The translations under genes were made by a program, and so were the position numbers. A stretch of DNA of 64,000 bases from Terriglobus saanensis SP1PR4 (GTDB taxonomy: Bacteria; Acidobacteriota; Terriglobia; Terriglobales; Acidobacteriaceae). The notes under the pieces were generated by a model. It was given only the letters and a program-made list of their open reading frames with translations. It was not told the DNA's origin and did no database searches. Location: assembly GCF_000179915.2 (NCBI RefSeq), contig NC_014963.1:2976001-3040000 (forward strand), given 5' to 3'. Shown in pieces: positions 343 through 16,921 of the stretch; positions within the stretch are counted from its first letter, which is position 1; each line of letters begins with the position of its first letter.

Positions 343-459
343 TTTGTCATCCCGCTGCGAAGCGGAGGGATCTGCTTTTGTCTTCCTCAAAGATCCGGTT
401 TATGCACTCTGCGCGACCCCACTCTTTCGCGATGAAGCCGCGAAAAAATGGGGCACAAG
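343..459 (+). repeat. Composite dispersed repeat, copy R1 (modules A and B)
   Basis: The first half (343-379) is module A: TTGTCATCCCG, then GCGAAGCGGAGGGATCTG and a T-run. The second half (405-459) is module B in inverse orientation: a hairpin of the type CCCCAC-TTTCGCG ... CGCGAA-TGGGG flanked by a GCGCGACC/GGTCGCGC edge. The same A-spacer-B arrangement is found as a reverse complement at 16802-16921. It sits between an acyltransferase and an oxidase gene. Confidence 0.75.
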
Positions 460-470
460 ACCAGCTTTCT

Positions 471-2045
471 TCAGCCGCGAATCGACATCGCATGATGAAA
501 CACATTGTTCGGGTCGTACTTCCGCTTCACACTCTGCAGAAACGGATAAAGCTCTCCCGGACCGTAATAAAGCTGCGGCCAGAACTCGTACCGCAGCATA
601 TCGACGTCTGGATAGTTCATATAACAACCCTCATAGCGGTCGCTCCAGAACGGTGTTCCGCTGTACTTTGCACCAGCAGTAGACACCGAATAAAGTTCTG
701 TATAAAAATCCCTCATCCATCCGATCTGCCCTGCGTCCTGCGCGGCGTCATTCCAGGTCGCAATAAACTGCAACTTCAGAATGGAACTCCGCTGCGCCGA
801 TGACGTCTCTTCCAGCATCTGCCGCTTGTTGACCGCTCCGCCAAACGAATCGGCCAACACGGTATTCCGCGAAAGATCGACTCCAGGAATCGTGCGGTTC
901 AAATGCTTGTAGAAACAAGCCGCCTCGTCCCGGGAAAAACTCCTCTTCATATAAGTCGACTTGTATTTATGCCGCGAATCCATCGCAGGGCCACCATTGC
1001 GGCCCCCGCCGCCGCCCTGCGAATCGATCCAGGCCATCTTCTGCACCGTGTGCGTTGCTACACAAAGATTCGTCCCCGTTGCTGGTACCTCAGGATGATG
1101 CTCCGCCATTGCCGGATGCACCGTCAGTTCGCTCACCGGCTTGCATTCCTCGAAGATCGAAAGATACTCGTCGAGCACCTTCATGTCCTTCACCGTGCCA
1201 TCGGGATTGGAAAACGTCACCGACATCGTCAGCCGCCCCGAACTCCGGTGCGACAGATTGAAGATCGAAAACAGCCCCCACGTCTCCGGATCGCGCCCGC
1301 GTGTCTCCCAGTAGTTGCTGAAGAGAAAAAGAATCCGCGCAAACCGCTCCTCCGTCATCCCCTCCCAGCCAAAGCTGACGCTGCCCTTCACTACCTCGGT
1401 CGGCGCCTTCGGTAAAGTGTCGAAGTGAAAGTGCGTCACGATGCCAAAGTTTCCCCCTCCTGCTCCACGACAGGCCCGCAGCAAGTCGGCATCGTTCTTC
1501 TTGTCCGCCCGGCGGATCCTCGCCTTTCCCGCGTGATCGATCGTCACCACATCCACCGCCGTCACCCAGTCCGGTGTCACGCCATGCAGACGCGAAAGCA
1601 ACCCGTAGCCCGCACCCGAGATATGCCCACCCGCTCCCACAGGCCCACACGTCCCTCCGGGAATCGTCACCAGATCGCGCTTGTAAAGCTCCGGATACGC
1701 CCGTCCCAGAGTTGTTCCCGCGCCGAGTCGATATTTCGGCCCATTGGGCTCAGGGGCGGTTCCCGCGATCAGGCTCACATCAATGATGGCTCCCTGGGGA
1801 TTGTTATCGACAAAATCTTCATAGCAGTGGCCACCCGCGCGCACCGTAGGCCGCAGACCCGCGTGCACAAAGCGCTCCAGCGCCTCGGCCACGTCCTCAC
1901 TGCTGTCACACAGGGCAATGCGACTGGCTCGGTCATTCTCCGTTGCAGGAAAGCGAGCGTTCTGCCCGCGGCTTAAACGATCAAAACGAACATCCTCGCG
2001 CAACACAGTCTCTATGGCCATGCACGCAAAGATATCAGCAGCCAT
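471..2045 (-). CDS. FAD-binding oxidoreductase, berberine-bridge-enzyme type (bicovalent flavin)
   Basis: A 524-residue flavoprotein oxidase with a PCMH-type FAD domain in the first ~230 residues and a BBE domain at the C-terminus (ending KYDPNNVFHHAMSI, the usual BBE signature). Two covalent flavin anchors are visible: His73 in the VRAGGHCYED motif (8-alpha histidyl) and Cys133 in GGTCGPVGAGGH (6-S-cysteinyl). Characterised relatives oxidise sugars/oligosaccharides or alkaloids using O2 and release H2O2; the substrate here is unknown. No Tat or Sec signal is evident, so it is probably cytoplasmic, although Met9 (start at 2021) is an equally possible start. Neither start has a clear ribosome binding site. 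The gene stands alone, with a downstream repeat (R1) and a same-strand PLP-enzyme gene upstream. Confidence 0.85.
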   Translation of the reverse strand: MAADIFACMAIETVLREDVRFDRLSRGQNARFPATENDRASRIALCDSSEDVAEALERFVHAGLRPTVRAGGHCYEDFVDNNPQGAIIDVSLIAGTAPEPNGPKYRLGAGTTLGRAYPELYKRDLVTIPGGTCGPVGAGGHISGAGYGLLSRLHGVTPDWVTAVDVVTIDHAGKARIRRADKKNDADLLRACRGAGGGNFGIVTHFHFDTLPKAPTEVVKGSVSFGWEGMTEERFARILFLFSNYWETRGRDPETWGLFSIFNLSHRSSGRLTMSVTFSNPDGTVKDMKVLDEYLSIFEECKPVSELTVHPAMAEHHPEVPATGTNLCVATHTVQKMAWIDSQGGGGGRNGGPAMDSRHKYKSTYMKRSFSRDEAACFYKHLNRTIPGVDLSRNTVLADSFGGAVNKRQMLEETSSAQRSSILKLQFIATWNDAAQDAGQIGWMRDFYTELYSVSTAGAKYSGTPFWSDRYEGCYMNYPDVDMLRYEFWPQLYYGPGELYPFLQSVKRKYDPNNVFHHAMSIRG

Positions 2046-2084
2046 TCAGATCGTGAATAAGACCGCAGTCCTACATCCGTACTC

Positions 2085-3275
2085 TTATTTTTGAAAGACT
2101 TCCGTCAGTGCGCGATCAAAATCCGCAATCAGGTCTTGCGGACTCTCCAGCCCCACCGACAAACGGATCAAGCCATCCGAAATACCCAACCGCGCGCGCT
2201 CCGCCTTCGGCAGGTCACAGTGCGAAGCCGTCGCAGGATTCGTAATCAGCGACTCGACGCTCCCCAGACTCTCCGCGCACGTCGTCAGCTTCAACGCATT
2301 GATGAACGCAATCGCCTGCACCGTCGTCGCATCCAGCTCGAACGACAACATGCCGCCCGCCGCCTTCTGTTGCTTCTGCGCCAGTGCATACTGCGGAAAG
2401 CTCTTCAGCCCCGGATAGTTCACACGCACCACGCGCGGATTCCCCTCCAGCCATGCCGCCACAATGCCCGCGTTCTCTACATGCATCTTCAACCGCGTCG
2501 GCAGGGTCTTCACCCCCTGCAGCGTTAGCCAGGCGTCCATCGGGGAAGAAATCGTCCCGATCGTCTTCCTTACCAGACGCAGACGGTCCATCATCGCCAC
2601 ATCGTGCGACGCCAGCGATCCGCCGATCGTCGCATTGTGTCCATCGATGTACTTCGTCGTGGACAGCATCGCCAGATCCGCACCCAGGTTCAAAACGTTC
2701 TGCAACAGCGGAGTCAGAAACGTATTGTCCACCGCCAACAGCATGCCGTTCGCATGCGCAATCTCCGCCATCGCCGCAACATCCGTCAGCTTCATCGTCG
2801 GATTCGCTGGCGTCTCCACAAACATCAGCTTGCTCTCGGGTCGGATCGCGGCACGCACTGCGTCCATATCCGTCGTGTCCACATAGCTGTATCCGATACC
2901 GAAGTTCCCCAGCACCTGCTGAAACAGCCGCACCGTTCCGCCGTAGATCACCTCGGAGAGGATCACGTGGTCGCCCGCCTTCAGCAATCCCATGCACATC
3001 GTCGTAATCGCCGCCATGCCACTGCGGAAACACAACGCCTGCTCCGTTCCTTCCAGAGCGCTGATCGCCTGCTCTAGCGCATTCACCGTTGGATTGCCAC
3101 CGCGCGAATACCCATATCCCGCCTTCAACACACCCACCGACTCATGCACATACGTCGCCGTCTGGTGAATCGGGAAAAGAATCGAGTTCGACTCGCGCTC
3201 GTACACGCGCCGGCTATGGATCGCCAGCGTCTCAGGTTGTAGCTTGTTTTCGGGGGACGAATCAGACTCGGACAA
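2085..3275 (-). CDS. Cys/Met-metabolism PLP-dependent enzyme (cystathionine gamma-synthase/lyase family)
   Basis: A 396-residue fold-type I PLP enzyme of the trans-sulfuration family. The cofactor lysine is Lys208 in STTKYIDGHN, the ring-binding aspartate is Asp183 (AVDNTFLTP), and YSRGGNPT at 56-63 supplies the phosphate-binding Tyr/Arg of the neighbouring subunit. Length is normal for the family. Candidates are cystathionine gamma-synthase (O-acyl-homoserine plus cysteine), cystathionine gamma-lyase or methionine gamma-lyase. Sequence reading alone does not separate them, so no symbol is given. The start is a TTG codon chosen because AGGAG lies six bases upstream. tRNA-Val lies about 70 bases upstream on the same strand, and no SAM riboswitch fits in that gap. 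Confidence 0.85.
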   Translation of the reverse strand: MSESDSSPENKLQPETLAIHSRRVYERESNSILFPIHQTATYVHESVGVLKAGYGYSRGGNPTVNALEQAISALEGTEQALCFRSGMAAITTMCMGLLKAGDHVILSEVIYGGTVRLFQQVLGNFGIGYSYVDTTDMDAVRAAIRPESKLMFVETPANPTMKLTDVAAMAEIAHANGMLLAVDNTFLTPLLQNVLNLGADLAMLSTTKYIDGHNATIGGSLASHDVAMMDRLRLVRKTIGTISSPMDAWLTLQGVKTLPTRLKMHVENAGIVAAWLEGNPRVVRVNYPGLKSFPQYALAQKQQKAAGGMLSFELDATTVQAIAFINALKLTTCAESLGSVESLITNPATASHCDLPKAERARLGISDGLIRLSVGLESPQDLIADFDRALTEVFQK

Positions 3276-8226: not shown

Positions 8227-10224
8227 ATGGATATCAACGAAAAAATCCGGACGCTCCCCACCCAGCCAGGCGTGTACCTCTACAAAAACGCCGAGGACGA
8301 GGTCATCTACGTCGGCAAGGCGAAGAACCTGCGCTCCCGCGTTCGCTCGTACTTCCTCGAAGCCAACCAGCTCGCAAACCGCAAAACCGGCTCGCTCATG
8401 CGCGAAGCCGTCGATCTGGAATACATCCTCGTAGCCAACGAGCGCGAAGCCCTCGCCCTCGAAAACAACCTCATCAAGCAGCGCAAGCCGCGCTTCAACA
8501 TTCTTCTTCGCGATGACAAGACCTACCCTTACGTCAAACTCACCGTCCGTGATCGTCACCCCAAGGTCTTCGTTACCCGCAAGCTGAAAAAAGACGGTGC
8601 CCTCTACTTTGGCCCGTACTTTCCCGGCAACCTTGCCTACCGCCTCGTAGACCTCATTCACCGCAGCTTCCTCATTCCCTCCTGCAAGGTCGATCTCTCG
8701 CGTTATCACCCGCGCCCCTGTCTGGAGTACTACATCAAGCGCTGTCTCGCTCCCTGCGTGGAAAACCTCGTCACCCCCGACACCTACCGCGACGCCATCC
8801 GCGACGTCCAGCTCTTCCTCGAAGGCAAAGAAAGCGAACTCGAAGACCGCATCACCGCGCGCATGCACGAGGCCGCCGCCAGCGAGCAGTACGAACTCGC
8901 CGCCCGCCTCCGCGACCAGATCGTCACCGTCCATCAGCTTCAGGAAAAACAGCGCATCGCCTCCACCGACGACTCCGACGCCGACGTCTTCGGCTTCCAC
9001 TTCGCCAACGACATGCTCGCCGTCAACCAGTTCCACATGCGCAGTGGCAAGATCGTCGACCGCCGCGACTTCTTCTTCGAAGACCTCCCTGAAATCCTCG
9101 AAGACGACGAACCCGAAACAACAGAAACTATCGACAGCCTCTCTTTGTCATCCAGCAGCACCCCTTTGTCATCCCGTAGCGAAGCGGAGGGATCTGCTTT
9201 TCTTCCTGATCAAGCCGAAGACACCCAAACCTTCAACCCCTCCAACTTCTTCGCCGCCTTCCTCAAACAGCTCTATCTCGACCAGCCCTACGTCCCCCGC
9301 ACCATCATGGTCCCGGCAGAGTTCCGCGACCGCGATCTCCTCGCGACGCTCCTCTGCGACCGCACCGGACACAAGGTAGAAATCCTCGCCCCGCAACGCG
9401 GAGAAAAGCGCTCCCTCGTCGACCTCGTCTGCCAGAACGCCAAGCAGTCCTACGACCAGCGCTTCCGCACCCTGCAACCCAGCAAGGCCGCCATCGCCGC
9501 ATCGCTGCAGGATGCCCTCGGCCTCGCCGACCCGCCCAAACGCATCGAGTGCTTCGACATCTCGCACATCCAGGGCGCGGAAACCGTCGCCTCCATGGTC
9601 GTCTGGGAAGACGGCGAGATGAAGAAGTCCGACTATCGAAAGTTCAAGGTCAACAGCGTCTCAGGCGTGGACGACTTCGCCTCGATGCACGAGATCCTCA
9701 CCCGCCGTTACTCCAAGCTGCAGGCAGAGAAGAAACCCTTCCCTTCGCTCATCCTCATCGACGGTGGCCTCGGTCAGCTCCATGCCGCCTACGCCGCACT
9801 GGAACAGCTAGGCATCACGCTCCAGCCGCTGGCTTCGATCGCAAAACGCGAAGAGATCATCTACGTCCACGGACAGGAAGAAGACCCCGTCGTCCTCGAC
9901 CGCCGCTCGCCCGTGCTCCATCTTGTGCAGCATATCCGAGACGAATCCCACCGCTTCGCCGTGACGTATCACCGCAAGCGCCGCGAGATCCGCGACCGCG
10001 AAACCGAACTTCTGCCCATCCCCGGCGTAGGCCCTCGCACCCGCCAGCGCCTGATCGAACACTTCGGCTCCATCCGCGGCATCAAACTCGCTGGCCCCGA
10101 CGCCCTCACCGCCGTCGTCAACGCCGCTACCGCCGAAAAGATCCGCGCCTACCTCAACGCCGAACGCGACGCTGCCATCGACGGCAACCCCGAACCGTCG
10201 AACCCCCTACGCATCTTGAGCTGA
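8227..10224 (+). CDS. uvrC: UvrABC excinuclease subunit C
   Basis: UvrC makes both incisions in nucleotide-excision repair after recruitment by UvrB. Domains in order: GIY-YIG nuclease (GVYLYK at 15-20, IYVGKAKNLRSRV at 27-39), the cysteine-rich stretch (CLEYYIKRCLAPC), the UVR UvrB-binding motif (about 205-240), the RNase H-like nuclease (with RIECFDISHIQG and LILIDGGLGQL) and a C-terminal helix-hairpin-helix (LLPIPGVGPRTRQRLIEHFGS). At 665 residues it is longer than typical, partly because a linker at about residues 295-335 carries an in-frame copy of the dispersed repeat (codons ~313-328, reading SSRSEAEGSAFLPD). Acidic linkers are expected to be tolerant, so the enzyme is probably functional. 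Confidence 0.95.
   Translation: MDINEKIRTLPTQPGVYLYKNAEDEVIYVGKAKNLRSRVRSYFLEANQLANRKTGSLMREAVDLEYILVANEREALALENNLIKQRKPRFNILLRDDKTYPYVKLTVRDRHPKVFVTRKLKKDGALYFGPYFPGNLAYRLVDLIHRSFLIPSCKVDLSRYHPRPCLEYYIKRCLAPCVENLVTPDTYRDAIRDVQLFLEGKESELEDRITARMHEAAASEQYELAARLRDQIVTVHQLQEKQRIASTDDSDADVFGFHFANDMLAVNQFHMRSGKIVDRRDFFFEDLPEILEDDEPETTETIDSLSLSSSSTPLSSRSEAEGSAFLPDQAEDTQTFNPSNFFAAFLKQLYLDQPYVPRTIMVPAEFRDRDLLATLLCDRTGHKVEILAPQRGEKRSLVDLVCQNAKQSYDQRFRTLQPSKAAIAASLQDALGLADPPKRIECFDISHIQGAETVASMVVWEDGEMKKSDYRKFKVNSVSGVDDFASMHEILTRRYSKLQAEKKPFPSLILIDGGLGQLHAAYAALEQLGITLQPLASIAKREEIIYVHGQEEDPVVLDRRSPVLHLVQHIRDESHRFAVTYHRKRREIRDRETELLPIPGVGPRTRQRLIEHFGSIRGIKLAGPDALTAVVNAATAEKIRAYLNAERDAAIDGNPEPSNPLRILS
9165..9209 (+). 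repeat. Dispersed repeat module A inside the uvrC coding sequence (copy R3)
   Basis: Forty-five bases from TTTGTCATCCCG through GCGAAGCGGAGGGATCTG and a T-rich tail match module A of R1 almost base for base, but here they are translated in frame within uvrC. A partial direct repeat of its first ten bases (TTTGTCATCC) stands 21 bp upstream at 9144-9153, which may mark the insertion event. Confidence 0.75.
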
Positions 10225-10231
10225 TGTGTCA

Positions 10232-10660
10232 CTAAAACAACGGCGTATCGAAGTCCGCGATGAAGTTGATTCCGGGAACATACACTTTCAATAACTGTCT
10301 GTCTCCGGTCAGAAACAGATCGATGCCTGCGGCTCCAGCACAGGCCAGATGAATTGAGTCAGCAATTCTCAACTTCTGTACGGCCCGCAGCTGTGCAAAA
10401 GTATCTACGGCATCTTCGCCAAATGGCAGATAGCTGAAGCCTGCATCGTTCAAGACACTTCTAATCTCTGACTTCGCGTGGGCATCACCGGCTCTATCTC
10501 CCCCGGAAAGCAATTCACCCATTGCGAGATGGCTTGTATAAAGTTGGTCGCCCCTCTCTCGCGCCTGCGCGAGAAGCTGCCAGCATCGTTTGGAATACTT
10601 TTCATTTCCTTCCAGCAGATAGATAAAAAGCATCGTGTCCCAGAAGATTCTCCGCTTCAC
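10232..10660 (-). CDS. PIN-domain ribonuclease, VapC-like toxin
   Basis: A 142-residue PIN-domain protein with all four expected metal-binding acids: Asp8 (FWDTMLFIYLLE), Glu49 (MGELLSG), Asp101 (RIADSIHLA) and Asp120 (LTGDRQLL). Such proteins cut RNA and commonly act as toxins of toxin-antitoxin modules. It starts with GTG in a GTGA overlap with the stop of the upstream gene, so the two are translationally coupled, an arrangement usual for toxin-antitoxin pairs. The 3' end faces uvrC with seven bases between. Alternative: a housekeeping PIN nuclease. Confidence 0.82.
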   Translation of the reverse strand: MKRRIFWDTMLFIYLLEGNEKYSKRCWQLLAQARERGDQLYTSHLAMGELLSGGDRAGDAHAKSEIRSVLNDAGFSYLPFGEDAVDTFAQLRAVQKLRIADSIHLACAGAAGIDLFLTGDRQLLKVYVPGINFIADFDTPLF

Positions 10661-11106
10661 GCCGCTTCCTCATCATCGGAACGTACCCAACGCATAAAGG
10701 CTTCAGTTCCGCCCATCCCCTGGATCTCGTTCCGTAAAAGACCTTTTAGACGTCCGGTCAAACGCTGAGCCCACTCATCACTACTTTCCACTGGAGCCGG
10801 TACCTGCTTTTTGCTGGATCCCGGCTCGGCCTTGTCCACATAATGGAAGACGACGGTGGTACTTTGCTGGGACGGTGGGCCCTCAATCGATTTGATCTCG
10901 ATGTGATTCTTCGTCAAGAGCTTGAGCCCTCTTAGGGCAGAACAGACCATGGGAACACGACCACGCGGCAATCCTCGTCTCACCATTTCATCGAAGACAT
11001 CTCGTACGGGGATGACGAGTTCCCCTTGACGGCGTCGGGCCCAAGGCCGCACATAAGCCTCTTCAACAAAATTCCGAATGTAGTCCGTATCGATCTGAGA
11101 GAGCAT
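10657..11106 (-). CDS. Unknown protein, candidate antitoxin partner of the PIN nuclease
   Basis: Start set at ATG 11106, which has AGGAG eight bases upstream. Longer upstream frames run into dispersed repeat R4 and are not credible. The 149-residue product begins MLSQIDTDYIRNFVEE, is charged and soluble, and has a helical N-terminal half (residues 1-80) that could be a winged-helix-like or DNA-binding region (VPMVCSALRGLKLLTKNHIEI), then a Pro/Ser linker and a helical C-terminus rich in Asp/Glu (ending VRSDDEEAA). I do not recognise the family; VapB, Phd and MazE signatures are not evident. Its GTGA overlap with the PIN gene is the reason for proposing an antitoxin role. Confidence 0.6.
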   Translation of the reverse strand: MLSQIDTDYIRNFVEEAYVRPWARRRQGELVIPVRDVFDEMVRRGLPRGRVPMVCSALRGLKLLTKNHIEIKSIEGPPSQQSTTVVFHYVDKAEPGSSKKQVPAPVESSDEWAQRLTGRLKGLLRNEIQGMGGTEAFMRWVRSDDEEAA

Positions 11107-11200
11107 GGTTCTCCTAAAGCAATAATCACCAGAAGCATAGCATAGCATAAATAGAATCATTTTCGATTGGTGCGCAACCTCTGGAACAAACCTATCGACC

Positions 11201-11320
11201 GTGCCCGATTCTTTCGCGCTCTTTGCGAAAGAATCGGGTCGCGCAGAGTGCACAAACCAGATTCATCAGGAAGCAAGTGCCCATACATCGCGTACTTTGC
11301 GATGTGTTCATGCGCAAAGC
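11201..11320 (+). repeat. Composite dispersed repeat, copy R4 (modules B and C)
   Basis: Module B is a hairpin with stem CCGATTCTTTCGC / GCGAAAGAATCGG followed by GTCGCGCAGAGTGCACAAAC. Module C follows after GCAAG: TGCCCATACATCGC, loop, GCGATGTG and ATGCGCAAAGC. The compensating change in the B stem (CCGATTC paired with GAATCGG, versus CCCATTC in other copies) suggests the hairpin is maintained. It ends directly at the stop codon of the TonB receptor gene. Confidence 0.75.
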
Positions 11321-16801: not shown

Positions 16802-16921
16802 TTGTGCCCCATTCTTTCGCGCGCGCTTTTTGCGCGAAAGGGTGGGGTCGCGCGGAGCGCACAAACGGGACTCCTCAGGAAGCAAAAACAGATCCCTTCG
16901 CTTCGCTACGGGATGACAAAG
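16802..16921 (-). repeat. Composite dispersed repeat, copy R5 (modules A and B)
   Basis: The reverse complement of this stretch reads module A (TTTGTCATCCCGTAGCGAAG...GGATCTG and T-run), a linker GCTTCCTGAGGAGTCCCG, then module B (GTTTGTGCGCTCCGCGCGACC and the CCCACCCTTTCGCG / CGCGAAAGAATGGG hairpin). This is the same order as in R1 and is the cleanest full-length A-B copy in the window. It lies between the GH92 and beta-lactamase genes. Confidence 0.8.

Follow-up and report, generated by a model that had tools for sequence, protein, structure and literature searches.

We analysed a 64,000-nucleotide stretch of the Terriglobus saanensis SP1PR4 chromosome (contig NC_014963.1, positions 2,976,001 to 3,040,000; hereafter the window), which is part of a single-contig genome of 5,095,226 bases. 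The window carries an insert-bearing uvrC gene, and within its reading frame lies one member of a short palindromic repeat family that is otherwise dispersed through the genome (Table 1). The initial annotation had proposed that a repeat of an intergenic family is translated inside uvrC, and this is borne out: the core is read in the uvrC frame as LSSRSEAEGSA, positions 9169-9210 encode SSRSEAEGSAFLPD, and the core has 127 near-copies in the genome. The direct repeat noted ahead of the core is equally real. The sequence TTTGTCATCC occurs at 9144 and again at 9165, an offset of 21 nt or exactly 7 codons, and such half-copies recur 5' of other family members. On the 3' side, the CTTCCTGA of the uvrC copy resembles the beginning of a module that trails the core in some other copies; with at most one mismatch, CTTCCTGA is found within 25 nt 3' of the core in 20 of 110 copies, the uvrC copy counted.

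Table 1. Features of uvrC and of the repeat family in the window (nucleotide positions refer to the window; domain positions are residues of UvrC).
Feature	Position	Strand	Description
uvrC	8227-10224	+	intact 665-aa open reading frame; insert-bearing
UvrC Pfam domains			GIY-YIG 14-89; UVR 208-232; UvrC_RNaseH in two stretches, best 324-411; UvrC_RNaseH_dom 428-579; HhH 594-641
UvrC variable loop	9067-9261	+	residues 281-345 (census definition); from alignment of 148 UvrC loci
Truncated half-copy 5' of repeat	9144-9164	+	begins TTTGTCATCC
Repeat core	9167-9197	+	TGTCATCCCGTAGCGAAGCGGAGGGATCTGC; peptide (L)SSRSEAEGSA
T-run plus CTTCCTGA 3' of core	9198-9209	+	CTTCCTGA itself at 9202-9209
Second copy of the family	345-375	+	a variant second module comes after it
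Third copy of the family	16888-16918	-	followed by the second module

The family was delineated with a degenerate 31-mer searched on both strands with up to 3 mismatches, which found the 127 places, and the uvrC copy fits this pattern with zero mismatches. The reversed pattern found none, and the window alone holds 3 matches as against 0 in 100 shuffles; the uvrC repeat is therefore not a product of chance. We retrieved genome stretches containing 110 copies with their flanks, allowing up to 4 mismatches, and obtained the consensus CTTTGTCATCCCGTAGCGaAGCGaAGGGATCTGCTtTT; positions 11 and 16 of the search pattern were wildcards, so that variation there carried no penalty. An upstream half-copy lies within 45 nt of the core in 15 of the 110 copies, compared with 6 of 651 control windows, and this enrichment indicates that the direct repeat at 9144 is part of the element. 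A second conserved module, which contains TTTGTGCGCTC, follows within 60 nt 3' of the core in 38 of the 110 copies, the copy on the minus strand of the window included. A search of the window against Rfam at gathering scores returned one tRNA and nothing else.

The core could form a hairpin in which ATCCC pairs with GGGAT, followed by G.A, Y-R and A.G oppositions and then by G-C and C-G pairs around a G-N-A loop. Sequences of the type GCGNAGC form unusually stable DNA mini-hairpins. All four bases are found at the loop position N across the 110 copies, N being one of the search wildcards. The A5-T27 pair is present in 106 copies and the T6-A26 pair in 108. Pair 7-25 is C-G in 98 copies, T-A in 9 and T-G in 3, that is, both sides have changed in 9 copies; the covariation is significant by Fisher's test (p 5e-11, or 1e-8 on distinct copies), although the kinship of the copies makes these p-values merely a guide. 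Among the copies in genomes G002 and G008, a change of G-C to A-T separates the subfamilies GAGCGTAGCG and GAACGTAGTG and affects both arms of the inner stem, as would suit a hairpin.

We also asked how the other copies lie relative to genes. The family is found between genes as well as in uvrC, and uvrC is the sole copy of the 110 with a conserved protein found on both sides. Open reading frames (ORFs) of at least 40 codons extend to both sides of the repeat in 24 of the 110 copies, and ten open frames over copies other than that in uvrC, part of these 24 candidates, were run against Pfam. Four of the ten contain a domain, which never extends across the repeat: methionyl-tRNA synthetase, alginate lyase and thiamine-phosphate synthase lie wholly after it and ApbE wholly before it. 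Pfam found no domain in the other six (L202, L142, L145, L165, L156 and L171); the L142 frame was judged intergenic, with an apparent signal peptide after its repeats, and we dismissed the remaining five as spurious in view of their length or codon bias. A possible C-terminal capture was observed separately at L147 (same genome, 1143000-1146000), where an ApbE-family frame (ORF 1487-2605, minus strand) ends just past a repeat copy, so that its final residues LSSRSAAKGSASRY would be repeat-encoded. Twenty stretches of Granulicella rosea (390 kb, picked for their copies) contain 41 copies and yielded one clear capture, again in uvrC, the stretch having been included knowingly; ORFs of at least 60 codons flank five of these copies on both sides and were assessed by eye and by codon bias.

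The initial annotation had placed the insert in a linker joining the UVR motif to the RNase H-like domain. The placement needs correction, as the insert actually lies in a loop within the first RNase H-like domain and interrupts PF22920 (UvrC_RNaseH), whose Pfam match falls into two stretches. An AlphaFold2 model built from 38 UvrC sequences (mean predicted local distance difference test score, pLDDT, 82.6; predicted template modeling score, pTM, 0.41) gives pLDDT <50 for residues 294-333, the predicted disordered core of the loop. This low-scoring core is flanked by a predicted strand (275-284) and a predicted helix (338-350), and we thus picture the insert as a predicted disordered excursion within the first RNase H-like domain. 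The residues conserved over the 38 UvrCs, which we take to be catalytic, are all present in the window UvrC, and the insert presumably leaves UvrC activity unharmed. Retention of the insert through a permissive loop fits the data, and neutral tolerance of inserts is likely.

To place the insert among relatives, 200 genomes of the family were drawn and 197 gave a match; the loops come from part of those genomes. From 148 uvrC loci we removed three duplicates (L041, L261 and L219), two loci shorter than 560 aa (L038 and L059) and one with a loop of 164 aa (L278), which left 142; L065 and L092, with a stop inside the stretch, were left out of the protein alignment. An intact GTCATYC...GRAYCT repeat is present in 7 of the 142 loops (23.6 kb) versus a single match in the other 255 kb of these genes, a rate ratio of 75.6 (p 2e-7), and codon-shuffled loops gave a mean of 0.12 and a maximum of 2 matches over 300 rounds. 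The intact carriers are the window (L011), L012 (G006), L013 (G016), L046 (Edaphobacter aggregans), L047 (G. rosea), L289 (G125) and L316 (G165); an eighth, L018 (G017), carries a copy that departs from the pattern by one mismatch, which brings the total to 8 of 142 loops, the window counted. No intact GTCATCC repeat is present in the loops of L038, L059 and L278. The carriers' genomes are also rich in matches to the pattern or insert: a looser pattern matched 39 times in G006 and 33 times in G017 (reversed controls 2 and 3, with chance hits visible in G017), 157 times in G016 (count only), 69 times in E. aggregans and 270 times in G. rosea. Among the matches listed, the exact insert of E. aggregans occurs in two places, one agreeing with the uvrC position, and that of G. 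rosea in many.

Half of the eight inserts read SSR... and half read HP..., and none was seen in the third forward frame. The SSR... inserts begin at loop offsets of 95-104 nt, and the six single inserts have the same orientation relative to uvrC. On a tree built without the loop, the window species (G000) and G006 are sisters, yet their inserts belong to different subfamilies and are read in different frames, SSRSEAEGSA in the former versus RHPEEPRDEGSP in the latter. The closest tree rows to L013, L018 and L046 are without an intact repeat, and parsimony requires a minimum of 7 state changes for the 8 carriers. Parsimony thus points to several gains of the repeat in the UvrC loop, probably six or more. 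Most close relatives are without the repeat, but eight of the 142 loops, the sister's included, carry this type. With these carriers and with further families in the same loop, the locus is not the rare view of a repeat becoming protein that it had first seemed to be.

Two observations outside these counts concern the same loop. In L040 (G018, same genus; ~2300-2748; outside the census), uvrC is truncated where the contig ends, and the loop of the fragment contains GGGTGCCCCA-type stretches together with an intact GTCATTC repeat match in an open frame. In L025 (G014, same genus) and L041, which are identical over the uvrC stretch that was compared, the loop contains AGCGAAGCGGA (WRSEAERRA), which is similar to the repeat interior and is perhaps a relic; it was not counted.

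Three dispersed palindromic families other than that of the window occupy the loop in other members of the family. In G125, two distinct families lie adjacent, and a 192-base stretch spanning both has 53 matches in that genome and 48 in G165. From the G235 loop, a stretch of 78 bases matches 52 times in its own genome and 18 times in G222. For a stretch of 93 bases from the G185 loop, the counts are 34 in G185 and 16 in the L057 genome, mostly to the first 35-45 bases of the stretch; the counts for all three stretches include the uvrC locus itself if it matches. Sixteen of 142 loops contain perfect inverted repeats with arms of at least 9, compared with 10 of 426 control windows. Motifs of four families match 19 of 143 loops (A 7, B 6, D 6, E 3), L018 not being among the 19; motifs B, D and E were picked after the loops had been inspected. 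At least four dispersed families have entered the UvrC loop across the family. Motif-bearing loops are longer (median 74 versus 46.5 aa), and longer loops also offer more room for matches. The 164-aa loop of L278 (G202) matches two other palindromic family motifs.

The loop is unusually long in this clade. Between the residues aligned to R272 and Y350, every one of the 25 UvrCs aligned from the window's order has 55-126 aa, versus 31-32 aa in all 13 other bacteria, and hit coordinates give ~32-38 aa in 10 of 10 genomes of the same class from other orders. As cut for the census, the loop (65 aa in the window) ranges from 25 to 113 aa with a median of 50 in 137 family members. We did not meet the insert peptide in UvrC of distant bacteria free of the repeats, a find that would have spoken against the initial annotation: among the retrieved loci that were compared, the 13 UvrCs from outside the order have no such loop. 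The long loop of the clade has probably grown at least partly through the entry of repeats.

We hold it to be very probable that a REP-like (repetitive extragenic palindromic) repeat was copied in frame into uvrC and survives in a disordered loop, and that the same loop has been hit repeatedly by several families. A palindromic repeat built much like those of the CGTC-tagged REP superfamily would have been copied from the genomic pool into uvrC, probably by a mechanism involving single-stranded DNA, with the reading frame preserved and the copy lodged in the putatively disordered loop within the first RNase H-like domain. The insertion would have survived because such a loop leaves the protein able to fold, and purifying selection may have removed insertions elsewhere. 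In several lineages of the family, the same loop would independently have received repeats from at least four dispersed families. A chance resemblance of low-complexity loop-coding sequence to the repeat is a negligible prospect by comparison. Matches with up to 2 mismatches are indeed common, being found in 37 of 142 loops but likewise in 142 of 142 gene remainders, and for this reason we rejected them as evidence; chance may account for these weak matches. For exact copies it is refuted, since the window copy fits the pattern of a 127-place family without a mismatch and the 7 real loop matches exceed anything seen among shuffled codons.

A single ancient insertion in the family ancestor, mostly lost or eroded since and, where retained, homogenized with the local pool of repeats, would account for the frame and narrow range of offsets shared by the four SSR... 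inserts, for the same dimer layout in L289 and L316, which belong to one genus, and for the short stretch of L025 if that is a relic. We nevertheless regard it as very improbable in light of the differing subfamilies and frames of the two sisters, the repeat-free tree neighbors of L013, L018 and L046, the use of both open forward frames and the occupation of the same loop elsewhere by different families. It is also quite improbable that the repeat is retained for a function, as a DNA or mRNA hairpin or as a peptide that modulates the level or activity of UvrC. The recurrence of gains in one gene and the common orientation of the six single inserts would suit a function, as would a 2013 survey that places REPs in several excision-repair genes, the sole affected coding sequences in some species (PMC3733652). 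However, the families, frames and peptides in the loop all vary, close relatives do without the repeat, the insert region is predicted to be disordered and the uvrC copy does not stand out in its folding energy.

Several observations weigh against the capture account. The tree is a quick tree of a single gene with 41 of 139 inner branches open, and the number of gains is therefore approximate. In seven genomes of the order's second family, the R272-Y350 stretch is just ~33-51 aa, and 123 of 143 loops match none of the four tested families (L018 taken as a carrier); repeats therefore cannot explain all of the loop length, and by the distribution of lengths the long loop is mainly a trait of the window's family, next to which intermediate lengths are also seen. 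The motifs are also found in some gene remainders (A 1, B 4, D 1, E 0). There is no repeat copy within the 7-kb stretches around the genome's two Y1-transposase (Y1_Tnp) genes, so that no mover was identified. Finally, energy folding of the uvrC copy is unfavorable to the proposed hairpin (z -0.56 as DNA, -0.42 as RNA); our case for the hairpin is made on covariation, with single-strand folding giving no support.

Among known systems, the repeat resembles the CGTC-tagged REPs of the 2013 survey in being a short, high-copy palindrome that is mostly intergenic and at times lies in conserved genes, including excision-repair genes (PMC3733652). Its 31-bp core at 127 places on both strands falls within the 20-40 bp described for those repeats, complementary A-T pairs open its stem (A5-T27 and T6-A26), and the stretches around the two Y1_Tnp genes hold no copy. 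This last point agrees with the lack of association between CGTC repeats and transposase genes reported there (PMC3733652). The ends differ: nearly all of the 110 copies start with TGTC rather than an unpaired CGTC (L203 does start with CGTC, and the insert of the sister G006 reads CGTC), and the short tail is CTGC, whereas the unpaired tails of CGTC repeats mostly fit CCA. CGTC repeats are described from five phyla, with Acidobacteriota not included (PMC3733652). The survey stresses palindromic repeats in DNA-repair genes; its main text mentions excinuclease ABC proteins and does not name uvrC (PMC3733652). There, genes of one functional category are hit at different sites, although recB of two Xanthomonas is hit at about the same site (PMC3733652), whereas here a single UvrC loop is hit repeatedly by several families.

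GTAG REPs, which are found with RAYT/TnpA-REP transposases, are hairpins of comparable size whose copying presumably passes through single-stranded DNA. The present repeat differs from them in having no GTAG end tag (GTAG is internal) and no copy near the two Y1_Tnp genes. The Rickettsia palindromic elements (RPEs) of Ogata et al. (2000), as described in a later review, are a parallel for the capture itself: they form a family that is intergenic and also fused in frame within conserved genes, with the proteins tolerant of them (PMC2229807). Likewise, the repeat studied here is an in-frame insert in a conserved gene, is missing from close orthologues and belongs to a family that is also intergenic. 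It differs from RPEs (PMC2229807) in its 31-bp core and in having uvrC as the sole clear target among the 110 copies examined in this genome. In our searches of the open-licence literature, we found no description of the UvrC loop or of its repeated capture of repeats. Palindromic repeats in genes, repair genes included, are already published; what is new is the recurrent capture of several families by a single UvrC loop.

Immediately after uvrC, the window encodes a PIN-domain protein (10232-10660, minus strand; Pfam PIN, E 2e-16). An ORF without a Pfam match (10657-11253, minus strand) overlaps it, and the two are possibly a toxin-antitoxin pair.

A bolder idea, which we consider unlikely, is that the UvrC loop of the clade is a repeat-built appendage, long since repeats keep entering it, either as a preferred landing site or because inserts are selected. 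If true, a core DNA-repair enzyme would bear a lineage-specific segment of mobile DNA that is continually renewed. The locus offers several natural replicates of mobile DNA turning into protein at one mapped site of a repair enzyme that is widespread, and relatives in which the site is empty allow comparison. The older remark on palindromic repeats in repair genes, made in the 2013 survey (PMC3733652), thereby becomes testable, with the UvrC loop as a possible preferred target, refuge for surviving insertions or useful appendage.
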